DNA of 53,528 bases from Actinomycetes bacterium (GTDB lineage: Bacteria > Actinomycetota > Acidimicrobiia > Acidimicrobiales > GCA-2861595), in NCBI GenBank assembly GCA_023264975.1, contig JAHFUS010000022.1, positions 1-53,528 of the forward strand. Direction: 5' to 3'. The notes under the pieces were generated by a model, which saw nothing but the letters and a program-made list of their open reading frames with translations, was not told where the DNA came from and did no database searches. The position numbers and the translations under genes are program-made. Below are positions 5,612 through 38,235 of this stretch, piece by piece; the stretch's first letter is position 1, and the number at the start of each line of letters is the position of its first letter.

Positions 5612-6475
5612 CCGGCGTCTGCGGAGCCGGGCCGTCGCACGGCCGACAGCGTGCCACGGCATCGAAACGGACGGCGTCGTGTTCGGGCCCATCCGGAACG
5701 GGCTCGTCCCAGCCGAGGGCGCCCTCCCGGAAGGGGAGGTCGTTGACGGGGTCGAAGAACCCCACCGAGCCCTCTGGGTGCACCGTGTAGACGGTCCCGA
5801 AGAACTCCGAGCTGAACCGGGTCACCAACGTCGTCCGATGCCTGTCGCGCACGAAGTCGAGGTTCACCGTGCGCACGTGGCACAGCTCGCCGGCGTCGTT
5901 GACGACGTCGACGTCGGAGGCCACGCCAGCTCGGTGGCCCGCCGGCCGGCCAGGTCAGGGGTCCGGGCACGGACGGCGAGCACGACCTCCTCGAAGAACC
6001 GGTCCTCGTCGCCCACTGTCCAGGTACGCCAGAGCCGGATCCCGAAGAACCTCTCGACGTAGCCATCCAGATATGGACCAGCCGGTAGCTGCATGTCGGG
6101 CACCCACTCGCCTCGCACCGGCTCCGGGCGCTCCAACCGAGTCGGCGAGAAGTAGTCGATCCACCGGTCCTCGACCGGGAACAGGTCGGTGAACACCAGA
6201 GGGTCGGCGTCGAAGTCGGCCAGCGAGTCTCGTCCGGTGTCGAAGACATGGTCGGTCCCGAGGGCATCGACCGTCACCGGGTGGTCCCGGTAGAAGGTCC
6301 CGAAACCGTCGTTGCCAAGTTGCTCCGTCCATGCGACCCGTCTCGCCTCGTCCGGCCCCGTGGCCTGCACGAGGAGCAAACAAAGCTCGACATGGCGCTG
6401 CTCATCGATCAGGGGAAGCCACTCCCGCCACACCTTGACGGCGAAAAAGCGCGGGCCGCTCGTCGTACGAGCCAT
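5612..6475 (-). pseudogene. Frameshifted gene of unknown function
   Basis: Reading starts at ATG 6473-6475 (MARTTSGPRFFAVKVWREW) and looks coding for about 180 residues, ending near RRATELA. At about 5924 the coding sense moves to another frame, which continues SDVDVVNDAGELCHVRTVNLDF and FGTVYTVHPEGSVGFFDPVN. Adding one base in GCGTGG near 5922-5927 would join them (ELA-VASDVD), so a single-base deletion is the simplest explanation. The second part runs past the crtQ start without a stop where expected, so its true end is unclear. I do not recognise the family. The alternative is two overlapping genes, the second starting at GTG 5924. Confidence 0.5.
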
Positions 6476-16209: not shown

Positions 16210-18105
16210 ATGCCGGCGGCGGCGTCGGTAGGGTCGACCCTCGTGGAGGTCGGCGTCGACACCGGTGGGACGTTCACCGACGTGGTGGCCGGTGACGGCC
16301 GCATCGTCAAGGTCCTGTCCACGCCCGACGACCCGTCCGCAGGCGTCGCCGCCGGGCTGGCCGTTCTCGGCGGTGATCGGCCTGCGCTGCTGGCCCACGG
16401 GACGACGGTCGCCACCAACGCCCTGCTCGAGGGCGGGGGGGCCACGGTCGCACTGGTGACCACCGCCGGCCTCGCCGACGTCATCGAGATCGCCCGTCAG
16501 GACAGACCTTCGCTGTACGACCCGTGGGCCGACCGACCGGAGCCGTTGGTGCCCCGGGAGCTGCGTTTCGAGGTCGGCGGGCGCCTGGCCTCCGACGGCC
16601 GGGAGGTGGAGGCGGTCGACGTCGCTGCGGTGCCGGAGGTGCCGGCCGGGACAGGCGTGGTGGCCGTCTGCCTGCTGCACGCCGACCTCGACGCCGGTCA
16701 CGAGCAGGCGGTGGCGGCCGTGCTGCGCGACCGCGGCCACGAGGTCGTGTGCTCGCACGAGGTGTCGCCGGAGTTCCGGGAGTACGAGCGCACGGTCACC
16801 ACCGTCGTCGACGCCGGCCTGCGCCTGGCGTGCCGGTCGTACCTCGGCCGTCTGGCCGGCTCGGCCGGCGAGGTGCTGGTGATGACGTCCGCCGGCGGCC
16901 TCGTCGGCCTCGACGAGGCGATGGCCCGCCCCGCCGCCCTGCTGCTGTCCGGCCCGGCCGGCGGTGTCGGGGCAGCAGCGGCGGCCGCCGTCGCAGCCGG
17001 GTTCCCGGATGCGGTGAGCTTCGACATGGGCGGCACCAGCACCGACGTCTGTCTCGTCCTCGATGGCGCGCCTGCGCCTGCAGCGGAACGCACGGTGGCC
17101 GGCTACCCGGTGCGCCTGCCGTCGCTCGACATCCACACCATCGGCGCCGGCGGTGGCTCCATCGCCCGTGTCGACGCGGGCGGAGCACTCACCGTGGGGC
17201 CTCGCAGCGCCGGCGCCGTCCCCGGGCCCGCCTGCTACGGCCGGGGCGGCACCGCGGCCACCGTCACCGACGCCGACCTGATCGCCGGGCGGGTCCCCCA
17301 CGACGCCGTGCTGCCGGGCATCGGCACCCTCGACGTCGACGCCGCCCTCAAGGCGCTCGACGACGCGAACGTGACGGCCGAGGGTGTGCTGGCGGTGGTG
17401 GACGCGGCGATGGTGCAGGCCGTCCGCAAAGTGAGCCTGGAGCGGGGGGTGGACCCGCGCTCGCTCGCCCTGGTGGCCTTCGGCGGCGCCGGCCCCCTGC
17501 ACGCCTGCGCGCTGGCCGAGGCGCTGGGGATGGCGGTGGTTATCGTGCCGCCCCGGGCCGGTGTGCTGTCGGCCGCCGGCCTGCTCGGGTCGCCTCGCCA
17601 GTCCGTGCTCGTGCGCTCGTGGCCTACGCCCGGCGACCACGACGGTCTGAGCGACGCCCGCTTCAAGCTGGCCCGGGCCGCCGCCCGCCACCTCCTCGGC
17701 GTCGCCCCCGACGCCCCGGCCCGGGTCATGCTCGACCACCGCACCGCCCATGGCACGGTGACCGTGGACGGCCGTGCGCCGGTGGACGTGGAACTCGGCC
17801 TCGACTGCCGCTACGCGGGCCAGAGCCATGAACTCACGGTGGCGTCGGTGGCCGCCTTCGGGCGCGAGCACCGTCGGCGCAACGGCTACGCCAGGCCGGG
17901 CGCCCCCGTCGAGGTCACCGCTCTTCGGGCGACAGCCCGCCTGCCACCGCCCGTGCCGCTCGACCGCCTCCCCGATCCTCCGGGCGCCGCCCGCCGCCCC
18001 GCCCGCGGCCCGGCCGTCGTGGCCGAGGAGGACTGCACCGTGTGGGTGGCGCCGGGATGGTCGGCCGAGGTGGGCCAGGGCGGGTCGTGGGTGATGACCC
18101 GATGA
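16210..18105 (+). CDS. hyuA: Hydantoinase/oxoprolinase A subunit
   Basis: A 631-residue protein of the ATP-dependent hydantoinase/5-oxoprolinase A family, which works with HyuB to open cyclic amides or carboxylate related substrates. ASKHA-type nucleotide sites are visible: VGVDTGGTFTDVV near residue 14, LAHGTTVATNALLEG, GPAGGVGAAAAAAVA, and FDMGGTSTDVCLV with SLDIHTIGAGGGSIARVD. A later stretch, LVAFGGAGPLHACALAEALG, is also typical. It is somewhat shorter than common HyuA proteins (about 680). The start is ATG 16210, with GTG 16243 as an alternative nearer the first motif. The stop overlaps the hyuB start (ATGA). The actual substrate is unknown. Confidence 0.87.
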   Translation: MPAAASVGSTLVEVGVDTGGTFTDVVAGDGRIVKVLSTPDDPSAGVAAGLAVLGGDRPALLAHGTTVATNALLEGGGATVALVTTAGLADVIEIARQDRPSLYDPWADRPEPLVPRELRFEVGGRLASDGREVEAVDVAAVPEVPAGTGVVAVCLLHADLDAGHEQAVAAVLRDRGHEVVCSHEVSPEFREYERTVTTVVDAGLRLACRSYLGRLAGSAGEVLVMTSAGGLVGLDEAMARPAALLLSGPAGGVGAAAAAAVAAGFPDAVSFDMGGTSTDVCLVLDGAPAPAAERTVAGYPVRLPSLDIHTIGAGGGSIARVDAGGALTVGPRSAGAVPGPACYGRGGTAATVTDADLIAGRVPHDAVLPGIGTLDVDAALKALDDANVTAEGVLAVVDAAMVQAVRKVSLERGVDPRSLALVAFGGAGPLHACALAEALGMAVVIVPPRAGVLSAAGLLGSPRQSVLVRSWPTPGDHDGLSDARFKLARAAARHLLGVAPDAPARVMLDHRTAHGTVTVDGRAPVDVELGLDCRYAGQSHELTVASVAAFGREHRRRNGYARPGAPVEVTALRATARLPPPVPLDRLPDPPGAARRPARGPAVVAEEDCTVWVAPGWSAEVGQGGSWVMTR

Positions 18106-19775
18106 CGGAACCGGTGCTGGACCCGGCGTCGCTCCAGGTATTGGTGTCGCGCCTCGTTGGGGTGGCCGAGGAGATGGGCGCCGTGCTGCGCCGGGCCGCC
18201 TTCAGCCCCAACATCAAGGAGCGGGCGGACTGCTCGGCAGCGCTGTTCACGCCCGACGGCGAGCTGCTGGTGCAGGCCGAGCACATCCCCGTACACCTGG
18301 GCTCGATGCCGGCATCGGTGCGGGCGGCGCTGGCGCTCGATGTCCGCGCCGGCGAGCAGGTGATCCTCAACGACCCCTTCGCCGGCGGCACCCACCTGAA
18401 CGACATCACCCTGGTGGCCCCCTGCCACGTGGACGGTGTGCTGGTGGGCTGGGCGGCCAACCGGGCGCACCACGCCGACGTCGGCGGCATGGCCCCCGGG
18501 TCGATGCCCCCCGAGGCGGAGGAGGTCGTGCAGGAGGGCCTGCGCATCCCGCCCGTGGTGTTCGCCGACCAGGTGGCGGCGCTGTTGCTGGCCAACTCCC
18601 GCACGCCTGAGGAACGACGGGGTGACCTCGACGCCCAGCTCGGCGCCAACCGGGTGGGTGTCGAGCGCCTGGCTGAGATGGCCGGCGAACCGTTGGCGGA
18701 GGTGGTGGCCTACGGGGAGCGGCGCATGCGGGCCGCCCTCGCCGAGCTGCCCGACGGGGTTTGGCACTTCGAGGATGTGCTCGACTCGATCGGTCCGGGG
18801 GACGACCAGCGCTCGCCGTCGCGCATCGCCGTCACCCTCACCATCGCAGGCGACGAGGTCATCTTCGACTTCACCGGCACCGACCCCCAGCGGCCGGGCA
18901 ACGTGAACGCCGTCGAGGCGGTGACGGTGAGCGCGGTGGCCTTCGCCATCCGGAGCGTGACGGACCCGACCATCCCGGCCAACGGCGGGGCGCTGCGCCC
19001 GGTGAAGGTGATCGCCACGCCCGGATCGGTCGTGGCCGCTGTCCCGCCGGTGGCCGTCGGCGCCGGCAATGTGGAGGTCAGCCAGCGGGTCGCCGACGTG
19101 TGCCTCGGAGCGCTGGCCCAGGTCGTCCCGGACCGGGTGGGCGCCGCCGGCCAGGGGACCATGAACAACGTGCTGCTCGGTGGCGACGGGTGGGTCTATT
19201 ACGAGACGGTGGCCGGCGGGCAGGGCGGCCGGCCGGGCCGGACCGGCATGAGCGGTGCGAACACGGCGATGACCAACATCGTCAACGAACGACGCCGGTC
19301 TCGACCGCCCATGCCCGGCCAGTCGGGCATTCAGACGGGCATGACCAACATCGTCAACGAAGGACACCAGTCACGACCGCCCATGCCCGGCCAGTCGGGC
19401 ATTCAGACGGGCATGACAAATACCAAAAATACGCCCATCGAGGCGCTGGAGCGGGCCTATCCGCTCCGCGTCCTGCGGTACCGGCTGAGGCGGGGCTCGG
19501 GTGGCGCCGGACAGGCGCCCGGTGGCGAAGGGATCGAGCGCGACCTCCAGGTGCTGGAGGACGTCACGGTCTCGCTCATCACCGAGCGCCGGGTCTCGCG
19601 GCCTTGGGGGCTCGCCGGCGGCGAGCCTGGAGCGGCGGGAGAGAACTGGCTCCTACGGGCCGGCGACGAGGCGCACGCGGAGCGACTGCTGGACAAGTGC
19701 ACCGTGCATCTCCGGGCAGGCGACGTCCTGCGGATGCTGACACCGGGCGGCGGCGGCTGGGGCCTCATTCCCTGA
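18102..19775 (+). CDS. hyuB: Hydantoinase/oxoprolinase B subunit with an internal repeat insertion
   Basis: A 557-residue HyuB-type subunit, partner of HyuA and coupled to it by ATGA. Family markers are FSPNIKERADCSAALF, AEHIPVHLGSMP, ILNDPFAGGTHLNDITLV, the DFTGTDPQ turn, YYETVAGGQGGR and NTKNTPIEALERAYPLRVLR. Between the YYETVAGG segment and NTPIEALE the protein carries about 48 extra residues made of two 24-residue repeats (MTNIVNE...RPPMPGQSGIQTG), encoded by 72-bp DNA repeats, in frame. Directly after that, a 3' segment of about 360 bp is duplicated 1.6 kb downstream behind an ATPase gene. The subunit could still fold if the repeats form a surface loop. Confidence 0.85.
   Translation: MTEPVLDPASLQVLVSRLVGVAEEMGAVLRRAAFSPNIKERADCSAALFTPDGELLVQAEHIPVHLGSMPASVRAALALDVRAGEQVILNDPFAGGTHLNDITLVAPCHVDGVLVGWAANRAHHADVGGMAPGSMPPEAEEVVQEGLRIPPVVFADQVAALLLANSRTPEERRGDLDAQLGANRVGVERLAEMAGEPLAEVVAYGERRMRAALAELPDGVWHFEDVLDSIGPGDDQRSPSRIAVTLTIAGDEVIFDFTGTDPQRPGNVNAVEAVTVSAVAFAIRSVTDPTIPANGGALRPVKVIATPGSVVAAVPPVAVGAGNVEVSQRVADVCLGALAQVVPDRVGAAGQGTMNNVLLGGDGWVYYETVAGGQGGRPGRTGMSGANTAMTNIVNERRRSRPPMPGQSGIQTGMTNIVNEGHQSRPPMPGQSGIQTGMTNTKNTPIEALERAYPLRVLRYRLRRGSGGAGQAPGGEGIERDLQVLEDVTVSLITERRVSRPWGLAGGEPGAAGENWLLRAGDEAHAERLLDKCTVHLRAGDVLRMLTPGGGGWGLIP
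19269..19412 (+). repeat. Two tandem 72-bp repeats with internal palindromes, inside hyuB
   Basis: Units run 19269-19340 and 19341-19412, and the next 12 bases (from 19413) begin a third, diverged copy that is also the edge of the hyuB 3' duplication. Each unit contains ATGCCCG-GCCAGT-CGGGCAT, a perfect 7-bp-arm hairpin (19311-19330 and 19383-19402). About 54 bp of each unit are identical, while a segment of about 18 bp (around CGACGCCGGTCTCGAC versus GGACACCAGTCACGAC) differs at several positions. The segment before the first unit (GMSGANTAMTN in protein) looks like a degenerate earlier copy. Confidence 0.8.
19414..19775 (+). repeat. Upstream copy of the duplicated hyuB 3' end
   Basis: This segment, which encodes the C terminus of HyuB from TNTKNTPIEALE to the stop, recurs at 21026-21393. 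Both copies begin at TGACAAATACCAAAAA and stay alignable without gaps until the last few codons. I count about 30 differences over 350 bp, roughly 90% identity. The two copies bracket the ATPase gene as 1612-bp-spaced direct repeats. Confidence 0.85.
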
Positions 19776-19811
19776 CTTACCTTATGGCTCCGATGCATAA
19801 GGCTTGGTAAG
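19776..19811. promoter_or_regulatory. Palindrome between hyuB and the ATPase gene
   Basis: Nested inverted repeats sit directly after the hyuB stop: CCTTATG (19780-19786) with CATAAGG (19796-19802), and outside them CTTACC (19776-19781) with GGTAAG (19806-19811). It is AT-richer than the surroundings and ends 10 bp before the ATPase ATG. It could be an operator or promoter, or a hairpin ending the hyu transcript. No copy of it follows the second hyuB 3' end. Confidence 0.4.
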
Positions 19812-19821
19812 GTCCGTTGGC

Positions 19822-21009
19822 ATGGACCCACTGGACAACCCCTACCGCCCCGGGGCCGGCACCCCGCCGCCTGCGCTTCTCGGCCGGGATCAGTTGATCG
19901 ACGCATTCGGCATCACGGTGCGTCGGGCTGTCTCTGGCCGGCCAGGCAAAAGCCTCATGCCGATCGGCCTCCGAGGTGTGGGAAAGACGGTGCTTCTGAA
20001 CAGGTTCGGCGACATCGGCCGTGAGGCCGGGATGAAGGCAGCGTTCATCGAGGCGCCGGAAACGGGGGACTTCCGGACCTTGCTGGCGGTCCGCATCCGG
20101 AAGATCCTCCTCGAGCTCGAGCGCAGTGGCACGACACGAGCGGCTCTCAGGGCGCTGCGCGTCTTGAAGACCTTCACTCTCCAACTTCCGGACGGGTCAC
20201 GTCTCGCCATCGATGTCGACGCGCTGGCCGGCGAGGCGGACTCGGGCGACCTGGCGAGCGATTTCACCGACCTCCTCGTGGCCACAGGAGAGGCAGCGAA
20301 GGACAGGAGTGCAGGACTCCTTCTCTCGATCGACGAGGTGCAGTACCTGCGATCCGAGGAGTTGGGGGCGCTCATCAGCGCTGTTCACCGGACGACCCAG
20401 CTCTCGCTCCCCGTGGTTCTCGTTGGCGCAGGGCTTCCTCAGCTACCTGGCTTGGCCGGCGAGGCGAAGTCCTACGCCGAAAGGCTCTTCGACTTTCCGA
20501 TGATCGGCTCGCTCACCAAGGACGATGCGAGTGCCGCGCTTGCCATCCCAGCGCAGGAGCGAAACGTTGACTTCACCGATGAAGCACTGGCGCTTCTAGT
20601 CGCTGAGTCCCAGGGGTACCCGTACTTCCTTCAGGAGTGGGGGTATCACGTCTGGAACGACGCCGGCGAAACGCCGATCTCGGAGGACGATGTGACGTCG
20701 GTACGGCCGGTCGTCCTCGACCAGCTGGACCGCAACTTCTTCCTCGTGCGAGCCGACCGCCTCACCCCGCGGGAGCGGGACTACCTCCGGGCGATGGCAG
20801 AGCTCGGTCCTGGTCCTCACCGATCCGGCGACATCGCGTCGATGCTGGGTGTCAAGGTCGAGTCGGTTGCTCCCCGTAGGTCGCAGCTGATCGCCAAGGG
20901 CATGATCTTCAGCCCGGCGCATGGCGACACCGCTTTCACCGTGCCGCTCTTCGACGACTATCTACGGCGGACGATGTCCCGGTGGCAAAGACCAAAAGGC
21001 GGTCGCTGA
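19822..21009 (+). CDS. AAA (ORC/archaeal-type) ATPase with C-terminal winged helix
   Basis: A 395-residue stand-alone P-loop ATPase. It begins MDPLDNPYRPGAGTPPPALL, then GRDQLIDAF, the sensor-like start of AAA_16/ORC-type ATPases. Walker A is GLRGVGKT (residues 49-56) and Walker B is LLLSIDEVQYL (about 165-175). A region containing VGAGLPQLPGLAGEAKSYAE follows. The C-terminal 80 residues look like a winged helix (RSGDIASMLGVKVESVAPRR). The role of these actinobacterial ATPases is not established. The ATG at 19822 is preferred; TTG 19804 would add six codons. The gene has a less extreme codon bias than hyuA/B and lies between two copies of the hyuB 3' end, so it was probably acquired. Confidence 0.8.
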   Translation: MDPLDNPYRPGAGTPPPALLGRDQLIDAFGITVRRAVSGRPGKSLMPIGLRGVGKTVLLNRFGDIGREAGMKAAFIEAPETGDFRTLLAVRIRKILLELERSGTTRAALRALRVLKTFTLQLPDGSRLAIDVDALAGEADSGDLASDFTDLLVATGEAAKDRSAGLLLSIDEVQYLRSEELGALISAVHRTTQLSLPVVLVGAGLPQLPGLAGEAKSYAERLFDFPMIGSLTKDDASAALAIPAQERNVDFTDEALALLVAESQGYPYFLQEWGYHVWNDAGETPISEDDVTSVRPVVLDQLDRNFFLVRADRLTPRERDYLRAMAELGPGPHRSGDIASMLGVKVESVAPRRSQLIAKGMIFSPAHGDTAFTVPLFDDYLRRTMSRWQRPKGGR

Positions 21010-21025
21010 GCGGTGTCCATACCGT

Positions 21026-21393
21026 TGACAAATACCAAAAACACTCCCATCGAGGCACTGGAGCGGGCCTATCCGCTCCGGGTCCTGCGGTACCGGCTGA
21101 GGCGGGGGAGCGGTGGCGCGGGACTGGCGCCGGGTGGCGACGGGATCGAGCGCGACCTCCAGGTGCTGGAGGACGTCACGGTCTCGCTCATCACCGAGCG
21201 CCGGGCCTCGCGGCCATGGGGGCTCGCCGGCGGCGAGCCTGGAGCGCCGGGAGAGAACTGGCTGTTGCCCGGCGGCGACGAGGCGCATGCGGAGCGTCTG
21301 CTGGACAAGTGCACCGTACGTCTGCGGGCCGGCGACGTCCTGCGGATGCTGACGCCAGGCGGCGGTGGCTGGGGGCCACCGCAGCCCTCGTGA
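21026..21393 (+). pseudogene. Second, orphan copy of the hyuB 3' end
   Basis: It encodes NTKNTPIEALERAYPLRVLR and on to a stop, the last 120 or so residues of a HyuB, about 90% identical in DNA to 19414-19775. Its end differs (GGWGPPQPS against GGWGLIP). An in-frame GTG at 21013 could start a 126-residue protein, but a lone HyuB C terminus is unlikely to work. It may be the original end of hyuB, displaced by insertion of the segment 19414-21025. Recombination between the two copies would delete the ATPase and leave a complete hyuB. Confidence 0.75.
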
Positions 21394-21515: not shown

Positions 21516-21522
21516 CATGGAC

Positions 21523-21780
21523 GTGAACGTGAAGAACCTCGACGCCGGGGTTGTCGCCCGGCTTGCCGAGCAGGCTGAGGCCGAGGGGATGAGTCAGCAG
21601 GAATGGATCCGCCAGACGCTACGACGGAGCACCGCTCGCCTCTCGCCCGCCGAACTGCTGCGCAGCCGTGCCGAGACGAATCCGATGGGCGACGAAGAGT
21701 TCGCGATGATCCGCCAGCGCGCAGCGAAGCGCCGCGAGGCGGCAATCGAGGGACTCGGTGCACGACAGCGTCGTCGCTGA
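21523..21780 (+). CDS. Ribbon-helix-helix antitoxin (VapB/FitA-like)
   Basis: An 85-residue protein whose first 40 residues have the pattern of a FitA-type ribbon-helix-helix: a short strand VNVKNLD, helix VVARLAEQAEAEG, turn MSQQEWIRQTLRR. The C-terminal half, with ARLSPAELL and an Arg-rich end, would wrap the toxin. It should bind its own promoter as a dimer and neutralise the PIN toxin that follows. I choose GTG 21523 from the ribosome-binding-site spacing; ATG 21517 adds two residues. It overlaps the toxin gene by 23 nt, a typical toxin-antitoxin arrangement. Confidence 0.75.
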   Translation: MNVKNLDAGVVARLAEQAEAEGMSQQEWIRQTLRRSTARLSPAELLRSRAETNPMGDEEFAMIRQRAAKRREAAIEGLGARQRRR

Positions 21781-22123
21781 CGCCGGCGGGCTGCTCGTTC
21801 TGGCCGGGCTACTGGAGGGCATCGCCCACGAAGCGGACGAGATCCTTGCCCTCGACGCGACCTCGCTCCTGGTCGCCGAGTACCTTGCGCTCCGACACGA
21901 GGCGTCCCCCCATCGGACACACGTGGACTTCGCGGCCGTCGGCCATGTTGTTCGGGAGTGGTTCCCCGTCCGAGGCCTTGCTGTCGAGGCGGCGCTGTCG
22001 GCGGCCTCGTTGGAGGACGTCGATGGTCACGCTGCCCTTGCACTCGCTGAGTCACTCCACACGCCGCTGGTGACAAAGAACGCCGAGCTTCGAAGCAGGT
22101 CGATCCCCGTCCTGCACTGCTGA
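21758..22123 (+). CDS. PIN-domain toxin (VapC-like ribonuclease)
   Basis: A 121-residue PIN-domain protein. Acidic residues expected at the Mg-binding site are present: VVADAGGLL (first Asp), LLVAEYLAL (Glu), and VDGHAALALAESLHTPLVTK (third Asp, with the LVTKNAEL end typical of the fold). VapC toxins cut specific tRNAs or rRNA when freed from their antitoxin; the target here is unknown. GTG 21758 overlaps the antitoxin gene, and GTG 21770 is an alternative start. The first Asp sits in DAGG rather than the common DASA/DTSV. The 220 bp after the gene (22124-22343) hold nothing recognisable. Confidence 0.72.
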   Translation: MHDSVVADAGGLLVLAGLLEGIAHEADEILALDATSLLVAEYLALRHEASPHRTHVDFAAVGHVVREWFPVRGLAVEAALSAASLEDVDGHAALALAESLHTPLVTKNAELRSRSIPVLHC

Positions 22124-34524: not shown

Positions 34525-37500
34525 ATGGAGGGCCGACCAGATGATGACAATTGCCGGCGGCGCGCCCACTGGTCCGGTCCTCCGTCTGACTTCCGGTCGG
34601 TGCGCGTGCGGTTGAGCCCCTGTGTCCGGGCGATGGCGGCGACCTTGGTGGCCGCGAGCATGGCGGTGTCGCACACCGGGGACGCGCGCGCCCAGGAGGA
34701 CCCGGCGACCACGACGACGATCCCGTCGACCACGACCACGACGGATCCGCTCACCTCGACGTCGACATCAACGTCGTCGACCACGACGACCACCACCCAG
34801 CCCGAGACGCCCACCACCTCACCGTCGACCTCGACCACAGCTCCAGGCCAGGACGAGGGACCGACGACGCCCAGCACGGCGGGTGCCACGTCGACGACCG
34901 CCCGCCCCGGAACCGGCCCGACAGCGCCGGTGGGCAACCCTCCCGCCGTAGGTGGCGACGCCGCTCCGCCGCCGGGCACCGTGCCCGAGATCCCGGCCGC
35001 CCTCCAGGCCAAGATCGACTCGGTGCGCCGTTCGGGGCCGAACAGCACGGCCACCCTGATCGAGGCGTTGTCGCCCCTTGTAGCCATGGGTATGACCGAG
35101 CAGGAGTCGGTCCAGGCCGGTTTCGGGCGGTTCCCGGTGGGTGGGCGGGCCACATTCACCGACGACTGGTGGTTCCCTCGCTTCGTGCCCGTGCTCCACC
35201 TGCATGAGGGCACCGACATCTTCGCCGCCTACGGCACGCCCGCCCGCGCCCCGGCGACCGGAACCCTCAACCAGAGGTTCAACCCGGTGGGCGGCCTGAC
35301 CGCGTACGTCACCGAGGCGGACGGCACCTACTACTACCTGGCCCACCTGAGCCGCTACGAGCCCGGCCAGGTGTCGGGGCAGGCGGTACGGGCAGGCGAC
35401 GTGATCGGCTACGTGGGCGACTCGGGTAACGCCCGGGGCACTTCCCCCCATGTGCACTTCGAGGTCCACCCCGGTGGCGGCGGGCCCACCGACCCCAAGC
35501 CATTCCTCGATGCATGGATCGACGAGGCCCTAGCCGCCGTTCCGTCCGTGGTCGCCGCCGCCGTCCCCACGCCGGCCGGCGCCGGGCGGACGCCCACCGA
35601 GGAGCAGGACCTCACCGTGGTCGGCCACACCGACCTCGGAGGCCGGGGCGGCTACGGCGATGTAGTCGTGGTGGGCGACACGGCGTTGGTGGCGGCAGGC
35701 GACGGGGCGCCGCGCCCGGTGGCGGCGATCGACCCCCTCGCCGCCGGAACGGCGGCCACGCCGTCCTGCTCGGCGTCGGTGGCCGTGGTCGATCTCCGCG
35801 ACCCTGCCTCGCCCATCGTGGCCGGCACCATCGCGTTGGCGCCGGGGGAGCGCGTGGAGGACGTGGACGCCCTCGCCGTGCGCACGCCCGGCTTCACGGG
35901 TGACCTGGCGGCGGTGGCCGTAGGGCCGTGCACCCCTGGTGACGGCGGCACGGGCCTGGTGTTCTACGACGTCAGCGACCCCTCCGACCCGCAGTTGCTG
36001 GGCCGGGTTCCCCACCCCCGCCGGCTGGCCGACAGTGGCGGCACCGGCTGCGGAGCCGTCCTGCGGGGCACGTGCGCCCGCACCGACCGCACCGTCGACC
36101 TCCAGCAGCGCCCCGACGGCCGGGTCGTGTCGCTGTCGAGGGCCACGGCGGTAGCCGACGAGCCGGGCCCGGAGGCGTTCGTGGTCGACCTGACCGCGCC
36201 TGCCAGGCCCAGGGCGCTCGGCTTCGTGCCCCTCGGGCGGGGGGACCGGCCGCTCGCCGTCGACGACGGGTGCTCGCCCGTCCACCTCCCCCGATCGCGG
36301 CAGACGCCGGCCGACCGGCTCGGGCCCCTGGTCGACATCACCGGCTTCGCCTTGGCTCCCGAGGGGACCCGGGCGCCGGATGAGATCGTCCTCGACGCCG
36401 GCGACGGCTATCCAACCGTGGCCGAAGGCGGCGGCCGCCGGCTGGCGCTGGCGACCGAGGGCGCCTGGTGGTCGTCGACGTGGGCGCTGCGGGTGGACGC
36501 GCCGGCCGACGCCGGCGGCGAGAAGCCCGGCTGCGCCCGGGCGCTGTCGAGTTCGTCGGACGGGGCCGGTCCCACCGCAGGCGAGCTCGTGTACGTCGGG
36601 CGGGGCTGCCCCGGTCGCCACGAGGTCGATGGCACCACGATCCCGCCGGACCCCTACCTGGGTGACCCCGCCGGGCGCATCGCCGTCACGGACGCCGCCC
36701 TTACCCCGTCCCAGCCGACCCTGTCCGGGCACGGGTGCACGCCGGCCAGCCGCCTGTCCCGGGCCCGGCAGGCGGGCGCCCTCGGTCTGGTGGTGGCGGG
36801 CAGCTTCCAGGCCGACGTGGCCGACGTGGCCGACTTGGCCGACGTGGCCGACGTGGCGACGGCCCCGGCCGCACCCGCCGGCGTCGCGGCCGGGGACGGG
36901 GCGGCGGCACGGGCATCAGGCGCCATCCCCGCCCTCCTCCTGCGCAAGCCCGACGGCGACGCCCTGCGCACCGCACTGTGCCCGCCCGCCCTCGACCCCG
37001 GCGCCGCCTGCGGCGTCGCCGCCGACGTCTCCGCCGAGGTGGTGGAGCTGCCCGCCCGGTGGTCGGGCCTGCGTGTCCTCGACGTCACCGACCCCGACGC
37101 ACCCCGCCAGATCGCCTTGTACCGCACTGCGGCGACGGCGACCCCCTCCGACCCGGGCGCATCGTTCGCCGTCGAAGAGGCGGTCGCCGATGGAAGCCGC
37201 GTGTACGCGGCATGGGGCGCCGAAGGCCTGCGGGTGCTGGACCTGGCCTCGGGCAGCCCGTCCGAGGTGGGGTCGTTCGTGCCGCCGGTTGCGCCGGGAG
37301 CGACCCCGGCGGTGCCCCACGTGACCGGCGTCGACCACACGGCCGACCACGTCGTGGTGGCCGACCGGGACAGCGGCCTGTGGGTGCTCGACAAGCGCCC
37401 CCCCGCCGACACCCGCGGTTACTGGCTGGCCGACGCCGAGGGCGGCGTGCACGCCTTCGGTGACGCCGCCCTGCACGGCGCAGCCGACGGCCTGGCGCTC

Positions 37501-38235
37501 ACCAGCCCTGTTGTCGGCATGGCGCCCAGCCCCACCGCAGGCGGCTACTGGCTGGCCACCGCCGACGGCGGTGTGTACGCCTTCGGTGACGCCGCCTTCG
37601 CCGGCTCGCTCGCAGGAGCGGGCACGGCGCCGATCGTCGGCATCGCCGCCACGCCCTCCGGCCGGGGCTATTGGCTGGTGGCGGCCGACGGGGGTGTGTT
37701 CGCCTTCGGCGACGCCACCTTCCTCGGCTCGCTCGGCGCCAGTGCCCTGGTGCGGCCCATCGTGGCCCTCGTGCCGACGCCGACAGGGCGCGGTTACCGC
37801 CTCGTGGGCGCCGACGGTGGCGTGTTCGCGTTCGGCGACGCCGACTTCCTCGGGTCCACCGCCGCCACGCCGCCGGTCGCCCCGGTCGTGGGCGTCGCCG
37901 GCACCTCTTCAGGCCGGGGCTACTGGCTGGTCGCGGCCGACGGCGGGGTGTTCGCCTTCGGCGACGCCCGCTTCAAGGGCGCAGCGGCGGGTCGCCCGGC
38001 CACCTCCCCGGTGGTCGGCGTGGCCGCCATGACCGGCGTGCGCGGCTACTGGCTGGCCGGCGCAGACGGCCGGGTCGACGCCCTTGGTACTCCCAACCTC
38101 GGCGGGAGCGACACGGCCGGCGCCTCCGCCCCCGCCGTCGTCGCCGTGGCTGCCGTCCCCCGCCCGCCCGCCCCGCGCCCCACGTCTGCCGCGCCGGTGC
38201 GTGAAACCGCCGCCGGCCTCCGCCCCGCCCGCTGA
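34525..38235 (+). CDS. Giant secreted protein: M23 peptidase, beta-propeller-like middle, six C-terminal GYWL repeats
   Basis: A protein of up to 1236 residues. A signal peptide (MAATLVAASMAVSHTGDARA, near residue 37) is followed by a long Thr/Ser/Pro linker. An M23 LytM-type domain (about 200-330) comes next: HLHEGTDIFAAYG and GNARGTSPHVHFEVHPGG carry the HxxxD and HxH zinc ligands. The middle has LVIVD-like repeats (VAVVDLRDPASPIVAG, FYDVSDPSDPQLLG, VLDVTDPDAPRQIA) and a segment like a protease-associated domain, with an ADVADVADLADVADVA run. The C terminus carries six repeats around GYWLVAADGGVFAFGDA. It probably binds and cuts peptidoglycan. The true start may be ATG 34633 or GTG 34600 rather than 34525. 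Confidence 0.8.
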   Translation: MEGRPDDDNCRRRAHWSGPPSDFRSVRVRLSPCVRAMAATLVAASMAVSHTGDARAQEDPATTTTIPSTTTTTDPLTSTSTSTSSTTTTTTQPETPTTSPSTSTTAPGQDEGPTTPSTAGATSTTARPGTGPTAPVGNPPAVGGDAAPPPGTVPEIPAALQAKIDSVRRSGPNSTATLIEALSPLVAMGMTEQESVQAGFGRFPVGGRATFTDDWWFPRFVPVLHLHEGTDIFAAYGTPARAPATGTLNQRFNPVGGLTAYVTEADGTYYYLAHLSRYEPGQVSGQAVRAGDVIGYVGDSGNARGTSPHVHFEVHPGGGGPTDPKPFLDAWIDEALAAVPSVVAAAVPTPAGAGRTPTEEQDLTVVGHTDLGGRGGYGDVVVVGDTALVAAGDGAPRPVAAIDPLAAGTAATPSCSASVAVVDLRDPASPIVAGTIALAPGERVEDVDALAVRTPGFTGDLAAVAVGPCTPGDGGTGLVFYDVSDPSDPQLLGRVPHPRRLADSGGTGCGAVLRGTCARTDRTVDLQQRPDGRVVSLSRATAVADEPGPEAFVVDLTAPARPRALGFVPLGRGDRPLAVDDGCSPVHLPRSRQTPADRLGPLVDITGFALAPEGTRAPDEIVLDAGDGYPTVAEGGGRRLALATEGAWWSSTWALRVDAPADAGGEKPGCARALSSSSDGAGPTAGELVYVGRGCPGRHEVDGTTIPPDPYLGDPAGRIAVTDAALTPSQPTLSGHGCTPASRLSRARQAGALGLVVAGSFQADVADVADLADVADVATAPAAPAGVAAGDGAAARASGAIPALLLRKPDGDALRTALCPPALDPGAACGVAADVSAEVVELPARWSGLRVLDVTDPDAPRQIALYRTAATATPSDPGASFAVEEAVADGSRVYAAWGAEGLRVLDLASGSPSEVGSFVPPVAPGATPAVPHVTGVDHTADHVVVADRDSGLWVLDKRPPADTRGYWLADAEGGVHAFGDAALHGAADGLALTSPVVGMAPSPTAGGYWLATADGGVYAFGDAAFAGSLAGAGTAPIVGIAATPSGRGYWLVAADGGVFAFGDATFLGSLGASALVRPIVALVPTPTGRGYRLVGADGGVFAFGDADFLGSTAATPPVAPVVGVAGTSSGRGYWLVAADGGVFAFGDARFKGAAAGRPATSPVVGVAAMTGVRGYWLAGADGRVDALGTPNLGGSDTAGASAPAVVAVAAVPRPPAPRPTSAAPVRETAAGLRPAR
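37414..38106 (+). repeat. Six-fold protein repeat array in the M23 protein
   Basis: About 46-residue units repeat: GYWLADAEGGVHAFGDA, GYWLATADGGVYAFGDA, GYWLVAADGGVFAFGDA, GYRLVGADGGVFAFGDA, GYWLVAADGGVFAFGDA and GYWLAGADGRVDALGTP. The linkers are like PVVGMAPSPTAG. The DNA copies have diverged, so it is an old array. Such repeats occur in secreted proteins of high-GC actinobacteria, and a propeller or ligand-binding function is likely but unproven. Confidence 0.8.

Follow-up and report, generated by a model that had tools for sequence, protein, structure and literature searches.

The hyuB locus and its duplicated 3′ end

The window analysed here is a stretch of 53,528 nucleotides (contig JAHFUS010000022.1, positions 1 to 53,528; assembly GCA_023264975.1) from an actinomycete of the order Acidimicrobiales, and our subject is a hydantoinase gene within it, hyuB, whose 3′ end occurs on both sides of an ATPase gene. 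The upstream gene, hyuB (hydantoinase/oxoprolinase B; 18102..19775), encodes 557 amino acids including two insert units of 24 residues, matches PF02538 with an E-value of 8e-180 and is syntenic with the related genomes G001 and G003. It is followed by a promoter/operator region (19776..19821) and by the gene for an AAA_16 ATPase of 395 amino acids (19822..21009; PF13191), and then by a second copy of the hyuB 3′ end. All features of the locus are read on the + strand.

The two hyuB ends form a gap-free direct repeat of 349 nucleotides with 91.4% identity, copy 1 at 19414..19762 and copy 2 at 21026..21374, and both begin at the same TGACAAATACC edge, as the preliminary description of this DNA had recognised by eye. 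Across the whole 3.78-Mb assembly, the repeat sequence matches only these two places (E ~1e-140), a value that rules out a chance repeat. Both copies match the Pfam model Hydantoinase_B. Copy 2 encodes a C-terminal HyuB fragment only, with its frame open to 21393, and alone covers model positions 399-519, the last 121. The 30 differences between the copies are distributed as 3/6/21 over codon positions 1/2/3, an excess at third positions (p 4e-5), with zero stops and zero indels. This mostly synonymous pattern indicates that both copies have mostly evolved as coding sequence, which counts against a young, exact duplication with later decay.

In-frame units and inverted arms

The key to the mechanism is a feature that the preliminary description passed over: a 72-bp in-frame tandem repeat inside hyuB (19269-19412), immediately 5′ of copy 1, translated as MTNIVNERRRSRPPMPGQSGIQTG MTNIVNEGHQSRPPMPGQSGIQTG MTNTKNTPIEALE. 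Each unit starts with the target codons described below and closes with a variant of what ordinarily stands before those codons. Unit 1 (MTNIVNERRRSRPPMPGQSGIQTG; 19269..19340), apparently the older attL-like scar, contains a degenerate P′ arm at 19281-19296. The tandem repeat has a period of 72 at 94%, and homologous units occur in genomes G012, G017, G062, G123, G336, G340 and G300. Unit 2 (MTNIVNEGHQSRPPMPGQSGIQTG; 19341..19412) is likewise an attL-like scar, with a P′ arm (GTCAACGAAGGACACC; 19353-19368), identical in G017 and near-identical in G012, followed by a linker and then a recoded attB-like sequence. The cassette that the preliminary description placed at 19414-21025 must therefore be extended on its left to 19269, taking in these attL-like units.

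In every complete or left-end example, the unit has the form MTNT-(P′ arm)-linker-PGQSGIHTG, 24 codons inside hyuB. The part behind the arm consists of the linker and the recoded target, typically GGCATGACAAATACC replacing GGCATGACCAACACC, with PGQSGIHTGMTNT as the recoded attB sequence; the hyuB end borne by the element starts next. One such unit stands at the left junction in G012, G017, G336 and G300, two in the window, G340 and G123, and at least two in G062. A search for the unit pattern matched four of 218 genomes (the source genome G000, G012, G017 and G062), each at hyuB, and the reversed pattern used as a control gave zero matches in the 218.

One site is represented by two inverted arms: the first part of the unit, and the sequence that precedes the displaced 3′ end on its left. 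In five elements, the P arm matches the reverse complement of P′ at 13-16 of 27 positions, against ~6.5 in shuffled sequences (p <= 0.003), and in the window at 11 of 27 (p 0.04). The centre of symmetry is the AC of ATG-AC(C/A)AA, our proposed crossover, which in the window would lie at 21028-21029. The window's attR-like P arm (GGTGTCCATACCGTTGAC; 21012..21029) stands directly after the ATPase stop codon and reads GGTGTC-N7-TTGAC, with its inverted partner the P′ arm of unit 2. Within the 1.8 Mb examined, the motif GGTGT[CG]-N5..16-TTGACNAAYAC is found only at the hyuB junctions of G003, G017, G305 and the window. Inverted attP-like arms around a short core are thus divided between the two ends of these elements, the window being the weaker example.

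Serine recombinases and complete elements in relatives

The agent that probably uses these arms is found beside hyuB in other genomes. In G012 and G017, a gene for a large serine recombinase (LSR) with the domains PF00239, PF07508 and PF13408 (Resolvase, Recombinase and zinc ribbon) starts ~24 bp from an extra hyuB 3′ end and is oriented away from it; the extra end begins at residue 390. Among 397 genomes of the order, this LSR clade gave 13 matches in 11 genomes, eight of the 13 lying head-on against a hyuB 3′ end. A 25-codon remnant survives in G254, and a degenerate trace in G300. Identity to the best of the phage serine integrases compared is ~25-31%, at most ~31%, and the recombinases at hyuB form a distinct clade.

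In complete elements, hyuB with its units comes first, followed by the cargo, an LSR gene on the opposite strand and a second hyuB 3′ end. There are four, in G340 (10 kb), G062 (~38 kb), G336 (~6 kb) and G123 (~7.5 kb). An upstream gene completed by a borne end, with a displaced end beyond the element, is the arrangement in G340, G062 and G336 as well as in the window. The element of G340 (locus L187, 406-10650), an integrative and mobilisable element (IME), carries genes for a pPIWI-associated nuclease, a ThsB-type TIR protein, an 8xMP protein, an Eco57I-type methylase, a TrwC relaxase and the LSR. A TrwC (MobF) relaxase also stands beside the LSR of G017, and a Shedu SduA gene adjoins that of G012. 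Relaxases and defence genes together mark the complete elements as mobilisable, defence-carrying islands.

Two of these loci deserve separate mention. The ~38-kb element of G062 (G062:C22 156000-195600) has several more serine recombinase genes inside, perhaps representing nested elements. In G012, an open frame of 1284 aa (L153 5660-9514) immediately follows the borne hyuB end; it has no Pfam or PADLOC match and is a candidate new defence gene.

Empty sites and probably exchanged ends

In this order, hyuB is mostly a single-copy gene in which MTNT.NTP is uninterrupted, and such genes represent the empty attB. When the 126-aa C-terminus was searched against 59 related genomes, additional hyuB ends appeared in G003, G012, G017, G034, G048 and G050. 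The break in relatives lies at residue 390, in the MTN-T.NTP stretch. Loci of hyuB without the ATPase exist in relatives, a positive outcome for one of the comparisons that the preliminary description had proposed.

The borne ends do not always resemble the gene that they complete. In G012, borne and native ends are just 75% identical, indicating that the borne end originated outside that host. The 3′ part of the window's hyuB is 91% identical to G003 and 79-80% to G001 of the same genus, whereas the 5′ part is ~81-82% identical to both. The contrast between 3′ and 5′ identity to G003 (Fisher p 5e-6) again points to an exchanged end. A VapC-like gene of G003 stops 3 bp short of a P arm, like the ATPase of the window, and short one-gene cassettes at this hyuB site are thus not peculiar to the window.

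A proposed model of integration with in-frame scars

Repeats, units, inverted arms and complete LSR elements of like architecture in relatives are all observed, and together they make it probable, in our judgement, that an LSR-family integrative element targeting the hyuB codons MTN-T.NTP is present in the window as a remnant or as a mini-version without a recombinase. Two units on one side and a shortened opposite arm after the ATPase stop on the other point to this description. The preliminary description had offered two readings, a cassette whose own copy takes the place of the gene's 3′ end and a duplication that captured a gene. The attL- and attR-like junctions, and the complete elements at the same codons in relatives, favour the first and leave the second the weaker. 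It had also called the mechanism unknown, a statement superseded by the LSR junctions and elements of relatives, though the source genome has no LSR of this clade, either in the window or elsewhere, at E <= 1e-60.

We propose that the LSR would recombine attP with attB within hyuB, around the AC dinucleotide. Directly behind its P′ arm, the element would carry a linker in frame with hyuB, then attB in a synonymously recoded copy, then the whole of a hyuB 3′ end. Translation would run through attL into the borne end, so that HyuB stays complete and gains 24 residues per event, while the native 3′ end would be displaced beyond the cargo and behind the P arm, forming attR. A second integration, into the recoded target, would add a second unit. 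The two units of the window could accordingly record two successive events, or one event and a duplication of the unit. Of the last element, the window would retain attL, the hyuB end that it brought, a single ATPase gene together with its own operator, and an attR arm reduced in length. Copy 1 would then be the element-borne end that restores the window's HyuB. Copy 2 would be either the native hyuB end or one brought by an earlier element, the latter being suggested by its recoded spelling.

The inserted segment has neither a relaxase nor an integrase gene, and falls outside the definition of an IME. With the LSR gene absent, any movement of the window's element would need an LSR in trans. 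It is thus best described as a derivative, not an autonomous member of the LSR family, and may have arisen by deletion or be a natural mini-element that could be moved in trans. The family itself probably makes such insertions into hyuB repeatedly, leaving one 24-codon scar each time.

Several observations weigh against this model. The P arm of the window is 7 nt shorter than the canonical arm, and its symmetry is weak. In G048, the scar-bearing hyuB copy is the distal rather than the proximal one, an order that the model does not directly predict. At locus L007, the closest relative of the window's ATPase (86% identical over the protein) likewise stands between hyuB end copies, where P arm, P′ arm and scar are all absent; this ATPase can thus arrive at hyuB with no LSR junction in view. 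In other phyla, duplicated ends of other genes enclose the ATPase, and no LSR junction was identified at those sites.

The ATPase and alternative explanations

These last observations direct attention to the ATPase, the sole cargo of the window's element. Its AlphaFold model (pLDDT 89) resembles, by Foldseek, RuvB, Orc1/Cdc6 and the archaeal proteins SSO1545 and Pab2304, with TM-scores of ~0.55-0.64 to 2fna and 2qen, and the earlier label 'ORC-like' is a fair one for this predicted ORC/RuvB/MNS-like fold. Its likeness to the MNS-type and ORC-like ATPases SSO1545 and Pab2304 is one of predicted fold; it differs in its sequence, which had no significant match among PDB chains. A PADLOC search for defence systems did not match the ATPase. 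The family is spread across phyla, and the half-sites upstream of it, TTAT...ATAAGG...GGTAAGRTC, are strongly conserved as a set before homologues in several phyla and at L007. A second member in the source genome (L006; G000:C51:2372-3553) is 43% identical and has no flanking repeats.

Tight flanking direct repeats were found at 10 of 97 ATPase loci, compared with two of 265 control open reading frames of similar size at the same loci (Fisher p 5e-5). The repeats are ends of different genes, named by translation rather than annotation: 3′ ends of guaA, fabH and hsdS, the 5′ end of ribD, and a tRNA-like sequence. Most begin within ~25 bp of the ATPase stop. The same ATPase flanked by a duplicated end of a different gene, which the preliminary description had suggested seeking, thus exists in other phyla. 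In G048, an insert consisting only of an ATPase sits at a gene end within a perfect 23-bp repeat; a search for an empty site within its family yielded no orthologous site. At the amino-acid level, flanking repeats (17 of 97 ATPase loci and 18 of 265 controls) included many weak low-complexity matches and gave no clean separation, and we therefore use the DNA-level result alone. A second set of 22 ATPase loci from the phylum had zero tight repeats, which makes the association a minority trait of the ATPase.

The ATPase is carried in other ways too. On a plasmid of Vibrio sp. HDW18 (L242), a homologue is carried as an integron cassette with 127-bp attC repeats on either side. No attC-like palindrome is prominent among the longest inverted repeats of the window region, for which no attC model was run. 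Given its varied flanks and the Vibrio cassette, the ATPase is best seen as single-gene cargo of several vehicles. A bolder proposal, which we regard as doubtful, is that the ORC-like AAA_16 ATPase and its conserved operator form a recombinase-less single-gene mobile unit that would insert at conserved gene ends across phyla, with long target duplications, using whatever recombination is at hand: an LSR in trans at hyuB, the integron integrase in Vibrio and some further process at guaA, fabH and ribD.

A stricter version would make the ATPase and its operator a single-gene unit that inserted into the window with a long target duplication, the LSR scars of hyuB being older and unrelated. The excess of tight repeats over controls, their origin in different gene ends close to the ATPase stop, the ATPase-only insert of G048 and the armless hyuB case of L007 all argue for it. 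There is also a precedent, in that restriction-modification genes reportedly insert with long target duplication, as a single gene or operon between long host repeats and without a recombinase of their own, according to work of the Kobayashi group. The ATPase in other phyla fits this type, and loci L027, L034, L035 and L088 fit it better than the window, where the direct repeat is present but the junction lies at an LSR-type site with LSR arm sequences. The right copy in the window starts exactly at the LSR core, the P arm motif before it was seen only at hyuB LSR junctions in the 1.8 Mb examined, and the left copy has attL-like units. The second phylum set lacks tight repeats, moreover, and carriage by other vehicles, such as the Vibrio integron, suits a passive cargo. 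We consider this explanation unlikely for the window.

Plain segmental duplication, by unequal or single-crossover homologous recombination of DNA spanning the hyuB 3′ end and the ATPase, would dispense with any site-specific step. Long homologous repeats do permit homologous recombination, the two hyuB copies of G048, with a CBASS-type cyclase region between them (L147 5700-10700), are 97% identical, and L007 has further fragments of neighbouring sequence downstream. Yet the junction is one and the same codon in many genera, accompanied by inverted arms and adjacent LSR genes, and such a shared junction disfavours random recombination and makes this explanation very improbable. Also at L007, diverged copies of a small coiled-coil-protein gene (1791-2373 and 5656-6182) flank the hyuB-ATPase unit, a further sign of repeated insertion around hyu genes.

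An assembly artefact joining two hyuB alleles is conceivable in a fragmented assembly of 139 contigs, where repeats are error-prone, but hardly credible and rejected here: copies that differ by 30 nt, or 9%, are not a collapsed exact repeat, and like architecture recurs in other assemblies, including G340, G062, G336 and L007. A homing endonuclease of the fungal-mitochondrial style was also rejected, since no endonuclease gene lies between the hyuB copies.

Relation to known systems

Both replacement of a gene's 3′ end and restoration of a target's reading frame by an inserting element are already known, the former from e14 and the latter from dusA islands and SXT. The icd gene of Escherichia coli is a target of this kind, which phage 21 enters in the manner of e14, with a tyrosine integrase. 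The e14 element inserts in the 3′ part of icd, supplies its own 3′ end and displaces a 163-bp pseudo icd′ to its far side (PMC6379469). The hyuB family resembles it in entering a conserved metabolic gene in its 3′ part, in supplying the gene's end and in displacing the native one. It differs in its LSR recombinase, in a borne end of ~360 bp, and in the 72-bp in-frame scar left by each event, with a recoded attB and half an attP arm within it.

IMEs with site-specific serine recombinases have been reviewed as disrupting genes that are dispensable to the host (PMC5704250). The hyuB elements are similar in combining an LSR with a MobF relaxase (G340 and G017), in inserting inside a gene and in carrying defence cargo. 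They differ in that the target gene is kept open by the end supplied. SGI1-like islands in dusA, and SXT in prfC, are described as restoring the target's reading frame with island sequence (PMC8409611), and the hyuB family likewise restores the frame from its own sequence. The dusA and prfC elements differ in replacing the 5′ end and promoter, and no in-frame scar array appears in the part of that account consulted here (PMC8409611). A literature search found no paper joining serine recombinase, hydantoinase and genomic island, nor any account in which an LSR occurs together with a borne 3′ end, a recoded target and in-frame scars stacked in series.

We suggest that the hyuB LSR family escapes the disruption of its target gene by placing a recoded target and a gene end behind its own attP arm, so that insertion would become an in-frame scar of 24 codons. 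The number of scars in hyuB would then tally past integrations, providing a readable island history at a hot spot of defence systems (CBASS, Shedu, Thoeris-like TIR and toxin-antitoxin). In addition, a distinct LSR clade with predictable attB and attP sites is a candidate integration tool.

Neighbouring features of the window

Immediately after copy 2, where the sequence fails to align with G001, sits a VapBC-like toxin-antitoxin pair (21517..22123). The RHH antitoxin (21517-21780) has weak matches to PF22513 and VapB_Myco; the second protein, a putative PIN toxin (21758-22123), had no family match. If copy 2 is the end of an earlier element, this pair could be that element's cargo. Further downstream, the window contains an array of 126-bp coding repeats (37404-38088), ~70% identical and of the GYWLVAADGGVFAFGDA type, which is present in G003 too.

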